Shown: positions 13,908 to 17,697, numbered from the stretch's first letter. The stretch is DNA of 64,000 bases from Draconibacterium sp. (GCA_011620585.1 WOYV01000070.1:62001-126000), one strand, 5' to 3'. Made by a program: numbers and translations. The notes: generated by a model not told the origin, from the letters alone.

Positions 13908-13945
13908 AAAAAAGGGAGCATGATAAATTTCACACTCCTTTTTTA
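13908..13945. terminator. bidirectional terminator-like hairpin
   Basis: AAAAAAGGGAG...ACTCCTTTTTT between convergent ORFs. Confidence 0.5.
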
Positions 13946-13963: not shown

Positions 13964-15694
13964 TCACAAGGTAATGCTTGTACTTACATTTTTAGCTTTT
14001 TGCGAAACATAAACGAAAGTTACTTTTCCTTTTCCTTCGATAATAAATTCATATTCGGCTGAACTGTGACCCGGCAACGCAAAGAATTGTATTTCAGGTT
14101 TTGTTTCTTTATAAGTTACCTTATCGAGTCGGTAATCGTCGATTTTGCCGCTGGCAATAACTTTCGCGCCACTTACTTTCAGGTGATCGATTGTGTACAG
14201 TTTGTCTTTTACCGCTTGTGCTGTCATGGTAGATAAGCCGTTTTTATTTTCCAAACGAATTCGAACGCGTTTTAAGTTGTTTCCTAAATCTTTGGTTTCG
14301 AATACCTTCATTTCCACTTCAGGCGTTTCGGTTGCTGCCAGTAAAACAACTGAAGCATTTCGATGTACAAGGTCGTTTAACATGAACGGGTGGGGAAGAC
14401 GTGAACTCATTTTTACCCAGCCACCGATTTCGATATCGCCGTACACCGGATGATGGAAAGGTTTCCAGTCGTGGTATAATTCGCCCTGAACAACATTGTC
14501 GTTGAATTTAAGTTCTTCCCGGTCGCGTTCGATGCCACCACCCCGTTCTTCATCATTGTATGAAGCCGCTTTGGGCTTTTCTGAATAAGTTTCCTGGGTA
14601 CGGATAAACAATTCGCCCACCAGCGAGTATGATCCGAAGACAAAGAAGAATTGTCCGTCGGAATCCCCGTATGTTGGGTACAAATCGTACGCCGGCATAT
14701 AAACATATCCGGGAGTTATTTTAATGGCTTCTTTACCGATAACATCATAGGCTGCTACATCCGATTGTGGAATCTGCGTCGATTTTTCTGCCGGAACACG
14801 TAACCACATTCCCCCGTTATTGTGGAAGGCAAAGTTCATGATAATATTGGGGTGTTTTGCCACATAATCGTTGATGGCTTTTAACCCGATTCCTGAGAGT
14901 GGAAAATTGCCGGCGCCACGTTGCACATAATCAGGCATCCAGTTAAAACCCCAGTTCCGGTTCGGATCCAAATACCCTTCGGCATCTTCGTTAAAACGTC
15001 CGTCGCCGTCGTTATCCATTCCTTCGGAGCCTAAAATGGTGTACTCCCCCTTTTCGCCGGGTTTTACGCGTACCATAATTCTGGGATCTTCAGAGTCGGC
15101 CTTGTAAGCACCGTTCGGATCTTTGATGCGCATCTGACAGATACTTCCGTCGCCGTCCAAATCGTCGGGAGCATCTTCATCAAACAAACCGTCGCCGTCG
15201 TCGTCTTTCGGAACACGAATACTACGACTTGAATTTGGTGTGTTTGCATCGTCGAAGAAATGGGCACGGCCATCTACGTTTACCACCGGAACAATGTAAT
15301 GCACGTTGCGATCGACTGCCTTGGTTATTTTTTCGTTTTCGCCATATTTGGTCAATAACATATTGGCATAATACAAACATACTTCTCCGGCCTGGATTTC
15401 GTTACCATGAATGTTTCCATCCACCCAAACTCCTGGTTTTTCGAGTTCGGAGCCTGTTTTTGAATTATTGATGGTAAGAACATAAATTTTACGGCCTTCT
15501 TCGCTAACTCCCATCGACTCAAGTTTCGTTAGGTCAGGATAAGCTGCGTGAAGAACTTCGAGAGCTTTTACCACGTCTTCGTAATTGTAATATCGGTCGA
15601 AACGAAGCGGGACTTCTATCTTTGAATCATCGGCAGCAAATACGGATAGCGCCAACGAAAAAATTGCAATAAATAAAAATATTTTGCGTGCCAT
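13964..15694 (-). CDS. secreted M14 family zinc carboxypeptidase
   Basis: 576 aa; signal peptide; DGNIHGNE zinc motif, DPNRNW, NFAFHNNGG zinc His, GELFIRTQE; Asp-rich DDDGDGLFDEDAPDDLDGDG insert. Confidence 0.9.
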   Translation of the reverse strand: MARKIFLFIAIFSLALSVFAADDSKIEVPLRFDRYYNYEDVVKALEVLHAAYPDLTKLESMGVSEEGRKIYVLTINNSKTGSELEKPGVWVDGNIHGNEIQAGEVCLYYANMLLTKYGENEKITKAVDRNVHYIVPVVNVDGRAHFFDDANTPNSSRSIRVPKDDDGDGLFDEDAPDDLDGDGSICQMRIKDPNGAYKADSEDPRIMVRVKPGEKGEYTILGSEGMDNDGDGRFNEDAEGYLDPNRNWGFNWMPDYVQRGAGNFPLSGIGLKAINDYVAKHPNIIMNFAFHNNGGMWLRVPAEKSTQIPQSDVAAYDVIGKEAIKITPGYVYMPAYDLYPTYGDSDGQFFFVFGSYSLVGELFIRTQETYSEKPKAASYNDEERGGGIERDREELKFNDNVVQGELYHDWKPFHHPVYGDIEIGGWVKMSSRLPHPFMLNDLVHRNASVVLLAATETPEVEMKVFETKDLGNNLKRVRIRLENKNGLSTMTAQAVKDKLYTIDHLKVSGAKVIASGKIDDYRLDKVTYKETKPEIQFFALPGHSSAEYEFIIEGKGKVTFVYVSQKAKNVSTSITL

Positions 15695-15696
15695 AA

Positions 15697-17697
15697 TTAA
15701 CCTCCAATCTTAATTTGTTTAACAGCATCGGTAAATACTGCCGATTCGATGGTGGCAGTAACATCACCTTTTTTAGATTTTAACAGCCATATATATTTTT
15801 TAACCTGGTTGGCACCCAGAGAACCTACCGGTGTGCGCATTTTGCCTTCGAGTAATTCGAAATCGCCAGCGAGTGTTAAAATTACCGGCGCTGGTTGGCT
15901 GTTGCGTTCTCCCATGGCTGTTGGGTATGGAAATGCGCCGTTGTTGGCTACATAAATCTCTAATTTGTATATGCCGGCTCCCATGTCGGTTACTTTTTCG
16001 CTTTCGATAGCAAATTTTGGAAGTTGTGCAGAGAGTTTTAATAACCACGGAAGTTGAGTTTTAGCTAACGAATCAATCAATTCGGCTTTTGGCGTGGTCT
16101 CCAGATACGGAGCATACCCGCCAACTTCTACTTCGCCCAAGGTCGGATGATTTATTTTTTGCCAGGCTACGAAGCCTTTTCCATCTGGTTCTTTTTCAGA
16201 GTAAGCCAGCAGTGCTTTGTCTTTTTCACTCAATTCCCCTTCTTTTTCCGGTTTTGGCATTTTTTTCATCATGCCTACCATCATTTTGGGTGTTACCTGG
16301 CCACTTTCCATCATTTGTTTCACGTGTTCGGCAGAAAATTGTTCGGGTGCGTTGTTGGCTTTTAGAAATGCACCGATTTTTTCATCACCCAAAGCCACAA
16401 AATCTTCGGTACTCATTTTTTCAACATCATCCATCGAAACAACCTCGCCGTCTGCTTTCTTTTCTTCTTTCACTTTGGCAACAGAGAAAAGACACATACT
16501 AAAAGAAGGAACTCCGAGATGATAATACGCCCACAATTCGAATGAACCATCTTTAGCAGGAGTTGGGTCGAGTAAATCGGTATTGAATTTTTGAGCTTCG
16601 AGGAACTTCTTATAATCTTCAGCATATTTTTTGTAGAAAACCATGTCTTCATCCAGTGGATTCACGGTGGCGCCAAGACCAAGGAACCCGGCCACCATCG
16701 AAGGTGTAACTTCCATACCCGCAGGAACACGGGCTTTAAACATCTCAATTACTTCATCCATGGAATACGATTTTGAAATATCGATTCCGAGCATTCTTCC
16801 GTAGCGCTCTGGTATTTTAATGCTTTCGAGGTTGGCACCACCTTTTCGTCCTCCCTTTGGCGGAACCAAACAGAAGTTGGATGTTCCAAGTGTATAAACC
16901 ATTGCAATGTTTGGTCGATCGTAAATAAAACGCATGATCCCGTATGTTTCAGGCGATTCTCCGGAGTAACGTCCGGCTTCCTGATTTGTGTAAGGAAATA
17001 AATGAGGGAAAGTAATTCCAATATTCACGCCGCCAACGCCGTCTTCGTTATACAGTTTATCCAGGTCGTTGTCGATCCCTTCCGAATAAACCTTGTATTC
17101 GCCGCGTTCGCCTTTGCTTTTATCCGCTTTGTCGAGAATACGCGCATCATTTTTAGAAACAATATATTCACCTTCCAGATCTTTTACGCGCATTTGTGTG
17201 ATCATTCCGTCGCTGTTCAGATCGTCGGGGCCATCTTCGTCGGTGGCTTCGTCGGCGTCGTTGTTAATTACAAGCATGTTGGTAGCTGCTCCGGTTTTAA
17301 CTGCTGCAAAATAATCTCTCGAAGCATCGGGGTTAGGGTGAGCCAGAATGTACCATTTCGTGTTTTGTGTGTAAATGGCCGAATCCAGTAACATTTGGGC
17401 AAAGTAGAGCGCACCTTCGGTTGCCAGCGGCACGTTTCCTTCGAAATTGGCCCCAACAAAAACAGCAGGAGCATCGTTCAGATTGGTGCCGATTTCAAGC
17501 ACCGTTACCGGCGCTCCACCAGGGCTTACGGCTACCTGGTGTAATTTTGTGTTGCTCTTGTTGCCAAGCTGTTTCAACACTTGTTGCACTTCTTGCGGAC
17601 TGTGATATTTGCCCGAAGATGCTGACTGGGCTGCCAATCGGTTGACCGGTATGATCAGACAGCCCGACAATAATAGAAAGAACAGTTTTTTTAGCAT
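15697..17697 (-). CDS. M14-like protein lacking catalytic motifs (predicted pseudoenzyme)
   Basis: Likely ATG at 17697 (MLKKLFFLLLSGCLIIPVNRLAAQ). Collinear with the neighbouring M14 protein, but HGNE becomes EGNV, DPNRNW becomes VNIGIT, and FAFHNN becomes VYTLGT. Confidence 0.75.
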   Translation of the reverse strand: MLKKLFFLLLSGCLIIPVNRLAAQSASSGKYHSPQEVQQVLKQLGNKSNTKLHQVAVSPGGAPVTVLEIGTNLNDAPAVFVGANFEGNVPLATEGALYFAQMLLDSAIYTQNTKWYILAHPNPDASRDYFAAVKTGAATNMLVINNDADEATDEDGPDDLNSDGMITQMRVKDLEGEYIVSKNDARILDKADKSKGERGEYKVYSEGIDNDLDKLYNEDGVGGVNIGITFPHLFPYTNQEAGRYSGESPETYGIMRFIYDRPNIAMVYTLGTSNFCLVPPKGGRKGGANLESIKIPERYGRMLGIDISKSYSMDEVIEMFKARVPAGMEVTPSMVAGFLGLGATVNPLDEDMVFYKKYAEDYKKFLEAQKFNTDLLDPTPAKDGSFELWAYYHLGVPSFSMCLFSVAKVKEEKKADGEVVSMDDVEKMSTEDFVALGDEKIGAFLKANNAPEQFSAEHVKQMMESGQVTPKMMVGMMKKMPKPEKEGELSEKDKALLAYSEKEPDGKGFVAWQKINHPTLGEVEVGGYAPYLETTPKAELIDSLAKTQLPWLLKLSAQLPKFAIESEKVTDMGAGIYKLEIYVANNGAFPYPTAMGERNSQPAPVILTLAGDFELLEGKMRTPVGSLGANQVKKYIWLLKSKKGDVTATIESAVFTDAVKQIKIGG

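Follow-up and report, generated by a model that had tools for sequence, protein, structure and literature searches.

Two genes of M14 carboxypeptidase homologues lie one behind the other on the minus strand of the window, i.e., the whole stretch of 64,000 nucleotides of Draconibacterium sp. DNA that was analyzed (Table 1). The upstream gene encodes a homologue devoid of the catalytic residues (the pseudoenzyme, or dead protein), and the downstream gene encodes a protein in which these residues are present (the live enzyme). Direct reading of the minus strand gives TAA-TT-ATG at the passage from the dead to the live gene. The original prediction described two collinear secreted M14 homologues separated by 2 nt, and the open reading frames, their coordinates, and the junction are as it had them. 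Both proteins are predicted to be secreted, judging from signal-peptide-like N-terminal stretches read by eye; a hydrophobic N-terminus is also found in most dead and live homologues with complete N-termini. The flanking genes are unrelated to the pair: an alpha-L-rhamnosidase-like gene lies upstream on the opposite strand, and the downstream neighbor encodes a protein without a Pfam match. A terminator-like hairpin followed by a T run is located 26 nt past the live gene; however, shuffled sequences contain at least as many sites of this kind as the region does, and the hairpin is therefore weak evidence. NCBIfam holds no model for either the dead or the live protein.

Table 1. Features of the dead/live M14 gene pair, with positions counted from the first nucleotide of the window.
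Feature	Position	Strand	Basis or remark
Pseudoenzyme CDS (upstream gene, dead M14 homologue)	15697..17697	minus	666 aa
Signal peptide of pseudoenzyme, residues 1-24, ...LAAQ (predicted)	17626..17697	minus	direct reading of hydrophobic N-terminus
EGNV replacing HGNE (E86, V89), pseudoenzyme	17431..17442	minus	homologue alignment
Asp-rich insert part 1, pseudoenzyme, residues 145-171, DxDxDG-type	17185..17265	minus	D147, D149, D159 invariant 92/92
Asp-rich insert part 2, pseudoenzyme, residues 206-219	17041..17082	minus	E206, D209, D211, D213, E218 invariant 92/92
NIGI replacing DPNR, pseudoenzyme	17014..17025	minus	homologue alignment
G271 replacing zinc-ligand His, pseudoenzyme	16885..16887	minus	homologue alignment
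C402 replacing catalytic Glu, pseudoenzyme	16492..16494	minus	homologue alignment
Helical module, pseudoenzyme only, residues ~412-480 (~65 aa)	16258..16464	minus	model and sequence comparison
Spacer TT, 2 nt, dead-gene stop to live-gene start	15695..15696	minus	direct reading
Live M14 metallocarboxypeptidase CDS (downstream gene; activity predicted)	13964..15694	minus	576 aa
Signal peptide of live enzyme, residues 1-20 (predicted)	15635..15694	minus	direct reading of hydrophobic N-terminus
HGNE zinc motif, H96 and E99, live enzyme	15398..15409	minus	invariant in 93/93 close relatives
Asp-rich insert part 1, live enzyme, residues 164-190	15125..15205	minus	alignment
Asp-rich insert part 2, live enzyme, residues 224-237	14984..15025	minus	alignment
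N245-R246 substrate carboxylate-binding pair (DPNRNW), live enzyme	14957..14962	minus	alignments, including to 1OBR
H291, third zinc ligand, live enzyme	14822..14824	minus	homologue alignment
Y339, live enzyme, aligned with catalytic Tyr248 of carboxypeptidase A	14678..14680	minus	92/94; 1OBR profile alignment
E361, catalytic Glu of live enzyme (Glu270 of carboxypeptidase A)	14612..14614	minus	94/94
Terminator-like hairpin, then T run	13915..13938	minus	weak evidence

The resemblance of the two proteins reflects homology and not chance, since both exceed the curated Pfam cut-off for Peptidase_M14 of 21.6 bits (35.2 bits for the dead and 123.7 bits for the live protein) and are 31% identical to each other across 297 aa (E 2e-27). 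Membership in M16 (HxxEH) or M23 (HxxxD/HxH) was also considered, and Pfam matched M14 alone. AlphaFold2 models, computed for each protein from an alignment of 29 sequences, reached a mean pLDDT of 83.9 for the pseudoenzyme and 80.0 for the live enzyme. Foldseek places both among carboxypeptidases A/B/T, the pseudoenzyme model with E 1e-9 and TM (target) values up to ~0.6, the live model with E ~1e-14 and target-normalized TM values of ~0.63-0.71. A profile search for the pseudoenzyme likewise matched carboxypeptidases at E 3e-14. The active-site loops 246-265 and 336-342 of the live model (ma4359de43018) fall below a pLDDT of 50, and the dead model is more confident there; the low values could mean that the loops become ordered only with a partner, or could merely come from the shallow alignment.

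The downstream copy, as originally proposed, keeps the catalytic set (H96, E99, N245, R246, H291, and E361). When its family profile was aligned to carboxypeptidase T (1OBR), the HGNE, NR, FHN, Y, and E positions coincided. For the residue counts, 92 dead and 94 live-type sequences were aligned; all four of H96, E99, H291, and E361 are kept by the whole set of 93 live relatives. The one live-type exception (L111), which is without the distal His, belongs to a separate subfamily. On the strength of its residues and fold, the downstream protein is predicted to be an active-type M14 metallocarboxypeptidase. The exceptional protein represents a third M14 subfamily of 640-690 aa (L111 4293-6266; G580, G655, G406, and others), which has the same Asp-rich insert as the pair, an HSGE motif, and Asp and Ser in place of the distal zinc His and the catalytic Tyr, respectively, and which was not seen beside a dead partner.

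In the pseudoenzyme, the live residues H96, E99, N245 with R246, H291, and E361 are replaced by E86, V89, G227 with I228, G271, and C402, respectively. The claim that the upstream copy is without catalytic motifs was borne out, as none of the 92 dead homologues retains any of H96, E99, H291, or E361; the one correction concerns the register of the VYTLGT segment, where the distal His aligns with Gly271, one residue later than had been read. Y339 (live numbering) is also lost in the dead family. The losses are non-random: of 91 dead homologues, 83 have Glu or Asp for the first zinc His, and 71 have Gly for the third zinc His. The NR pair is partly kept in the dead clade (N in 41 members, R in 29), mostly in deep-branching Aminicenantes and Planctomycetes, a distribution that is consistent with a stepwise loss of the catalytic set. 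Partial retention of NR, together with the occurrence of ExxH in place of HxxE in 28 of 91 dead homologues, could be taken to mean that the protein is not dead and carries another metal site or performs other chemistry. This is improbable, as all 92 sequences lack both the third ligand and the residue corresponding to Glu270, and the columns specific to the dead family contain no set of three or more His, Asp, Glu, or Cys residues that might replace the metal ligands. Moreover, most acidic invariants of the dead family are common to the live family and lie within the Asp-rich insert.

The fold landmarks and the Asp-rich insert noted at the outset are indeed shared, Pfam assigning both proteins to M14 and the DxDxDG-type segments being invariant in the dead and live families alike. 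The obvious guess is that the insert binds calcium in both proteins. Because it is the most strongly kept common feature, it may form the shared frame of the module and, possibly, an interface. Another element, absent from the original prediction, is confined to the dead side. The helical module directly follows the segment that formerly bore the catalytic Glu, an order that would place it next to the former cleft. Roughly half of the dead family, across phyla, carries the module, and no live M14 protein does; Pfam has no model for it. A similar segment (42% identity over 59 aa) is found inside Vps10/BNR beta-propeller proteins of other Bacteroidia; the module occupies residues 297-355 of L112, and the Sortilin-Vps10/BNR hosts, of ~950 aa, occur in many Bacteroidia.

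It may be supposed from these features that the dead protein acts as a free substrate receptor or scaffold, whose old cleft binds the same peptides or cell-wall pieces as the live enzyme and hands them over or competes for them with no stable complex being formed. The former cleft segments of the dead family show a mean relative entropy of 2.1-2.9 compared with 1.65 for the remaining protein (~50 to 70 effective sequences in each of the two families), and they are conserved with new residues, such as an acidic one at the first zinc site and a Gly in place of the third ligand. The retention of the Asp-rich insert in both proteins fits such a role, and the helical module carried by about half of the dead copies, known as it is from secreted beta-propeller proteins, would be a plausible binding adaptor. 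However, the strict gene order and tight spacing described below point to stoichiometric co-synthesis, and a free receptor is regarded as rather unlikely.

The distribution of the pair was followed with a dead-family profile, which was run against GTDB genomes. Matches came from at least eight phyla (Bacteroidota, Aminicenantota/Acidobacteriota, Chlorobiota, Zixibacteria, Krumholzibacteriota, KSB1, Planctomycetota, and Verrucomicrobiota), although the matches listed are mostly MAGs, so that single phylum labels may be wrong. Synteny of an active/inactive pair beyond this strain, a point on which the original prediction could be checked, is thus found, with the dead gene first. Among the matches listed, both genes are readable at 95 loci (a few genomes are counted twice), and at every one of them the dead gene lies upstream on the same strand; a spacing of -4 nt (27 loci) or +2 nt (23 loci) is commonest. 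The two genes also come and go together. Within the window's family, 55 of 140 genomes have both and 84 have neither, the dead gene being cut by a contig end in the remaining one (Fisher p ~1e-38, kinship ignored). At the phylum level, 36 of 396 genomes have the live gene, called at a score >600 bits (a threshold set by the author's reading), and 35 of these 36 have the dead gene as well; in the 36th, the live gene lies at a contig edge. In three genomes (G318, L105/L106; G423, L108/L109; G683, C46/C57), both genes are kept and are no longer adjacent, an arrangement that speaks for a joint function and not merely for inertia of an operon. Within the dead clade, the copies from G318 and G423 have diverged furthest. 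No third gene is conserved with the pair, the commonest neighbors occurring in at most seven loci that are, as a rule, close relatives. At three loci (L123 2114-5720; G621, C74; G809, C50), a single dead gene precedes a tandem of two live M14 genes.

Since synthesis of the dead protein comes first and is in step with that of the enzyme, and the live M14 sequence is without a pro-domain, the possibility has to be considered that it is an inhibitor or a secretion chaperone, which would keep the enzyme silent, or fold it, until export is complete. A precedent is offered by Csd2, the C-terminal tail of which occupies the groove of Csd1 (PMC5053510). However, conservation of the C-terminal tail of the dead protein does not extend over the clade, and inhibition by a conserved tail in the manner of Csd2 was rejected, as the GG tail is limited to the window's family. 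Variation or loss in some lineages would also be expected of an inhibitor, whereas the dead gene is kept almost everywhere; a role as inhibitor or chaperone is given a low probability, below that of a receptor.

The common origin of the two genes was addressed with a tree built from 45 proteins of each kind, a quick one with no mixture model and some long branches. Dead and live proteins form two reciprocally monophyletic clades (SH-aLRT 100 each), and the comparison of these sequences indicates that the genes arose by one ancient duplication. The order of lineages is largely alike in the two clades, and the patristic distances correlate with r = 0.91, a value that no Mantel permutation matched, although linkage by itself would also produce such mirrored trees. 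Patristic distances on the dead side exceed those on the live side by a mean factor of 1.49. In two close comparisons with dS <0.6, the dead gene has dN/dS values of 0.12 (dS 0.16) and 0.08 (dS 0.5), and the live gene values of 0.03 and 0.05; the others suffer from saturation or are less reliable. Purifying selection acts on the dead gene. Relaxed selection on the upstream gene, raised beforehand as a counter-argument to a retained partner, is contradicted by dN/dS of ~0.08-0.12.

These data bear on the view that the upstream gene is a decaying, functionless duplicate. It evolves faster than its partner, and two loci have broken dead genes (L173 4636-6504 and L192 5974-7722), where the dead gene is split into two open reading frames and the live gene is intact; each split is due to a frameshift, a gap, or decay. 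A decaying pseudogene is nevertheless rejected, the chance of it being slight in the extreme, by dN/dS of ~0.1, the syntenic retention in at least eight phyla, and the conserved cleft.

The explanation that we favor, held with some reserve, is that the pair probably encodes a secreted two-subunit M14 metallocarboxypeptidase, in which the pseudoenzyme is a constitutive partner subunit. A stoichiometric partner would leave just such a pattern of gene order, spacing, joint gain and loss, and persistence of both genes after separation. The loss of the catalytic set on one side and its retention on the other, the mirrored trees, the purifying selection, and the still conserved former cleft are also counted in favor of a constitutive subunit. 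We take this as the likeliest reading, followed by a receptor or scaffold and then by an inhibitor or chaperone. The downstream protein would be the zinc enzyme, and the dedicated dead paralogue, the first of the two to be made and produced in step with it, would stabilize it, activate it, or shape its substrate cleft. We infer that the two proteins touch and that their complex is the working form. Some observations are counted against a constitutive subunit. No dead-live gene fusion was seen among the loci, the dead clade evolves ~1.5 times faster, in a few genomes (L180 and L188) a dead gene stands with no live gene detected beside it, and the likeness of the two trees would follow from linkage as well. 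An apparent fusion, the 1151-aa open reading frame of L135, was rejected as an effect of overlapping frames in high-G+C DNA. The earlier proposal of a co-expressed pseudoenzyme retained as a partner is thus supported by the 95 loci and by purifying selection; the partner may be a structural subunit or activator, a chaperone, a substrate receptor, or an inhibitor.

Heterodimers of a live and a dead peptidase are known from other families. Solved structures exist for M16B live/dead pairs (PMC12731061), and in the mitochondrial processing peptidase, SPH2681/SPH2682, TTHA1264/TTHA1265, and AlbE/AlbF, adjacent genes encode active and inactive homologues, as they do here (PMC11266112, PMC12731061). 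In those systems, the enzyme needs the inactive homologue as one of its halves (PMC11266112, PMC12731061), whereas in the present case it is the genes that point to a complex; moreover, M16B proteins have a clamshell fold and belong to another clan, unlike the M14 carboxypeptidase fold with an Asp-rich insert of the window pair. The structure of the M23B heterodimer Csd1/Csd2 of Helicobacter pylori, likewise composed of a live and a degenerate partner, has also been solved, and in Csd2 Glu stands where a zinc His would be (PMC5053510), similar to the dead protein. However, Csd1/Csd2 are built of M23 LytM domains and are known only for cell-wall peptidases. The likeness of the M14 pair to the M16 and M23 systems is one of working principle only. 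In prozyme/AdoMetDC, a dead paralogue activates its partner (PMC5201418).

Within M14 itself, a review of metallopeptidase pseudoenzymes from 2024 lists four vertebrate pseudopeptidases and yeast Ecm14, names no bacterial M14 member, and mentions bacterial two-gene operons for M16 only (PMC11266112). The eukaryotic proteins (AEBP1/ACLP, CPXM1, CPXM2, the third CPD domain, and Ecm14) resemble the dead protein in having the M14 fold, lost catalytic residues, and a secreted or extracellular location (PMC11266112). In contrast, the bacterial dead family has lost all of H69, E72, H196, and E270, and its gene adjoins that of a live paralogue. The closest solved structures to the live enzyme are carboxypeptidase T and carboxypeptidases A/B (M14A), with which the zinc ligands, NR, Tyr, and Glu align; however, identity to them is low (15-20%), and the live enzyme differs by a long insert rich in Asp and by an additional beta domain at the C-terminus. 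No bacterial M14 pseudopeptidase is described in the open-licence literature searched, although an earlier account in a subscription journal or in MEROPS is possible, and no paper on an M14 pseudoenzyme in Bacteroidetes or a zinc carboxypeptidase in Draconibacterium was found in that literature.

The regulation of live enzymes by their dead sisters is an open question of general scope, and for the known M14 cases no obvious live partner is at hand. Nearly a hundred matched dead/live pairs derived from one ancient duplication make the role of a dead peptidase directly testable with two genes that are expressed jointly. A more far-reaching suggestion, which we put forward tentatively and with less confidence than the subunit role itself, is that the pairs constitute an undescribed class of heterodimeric secreted metallocarboxypeptidases, present in at least eight phyla, in which an obligate dead M14 protein would complete the cleft of the live subunit or switch it on and both halves would carry a calcium-binding insert. 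If the two-subunit explanation is correct, a subunit would be added to an enzyme that annotations list as two M14 peptidases, one of them unable to cut.
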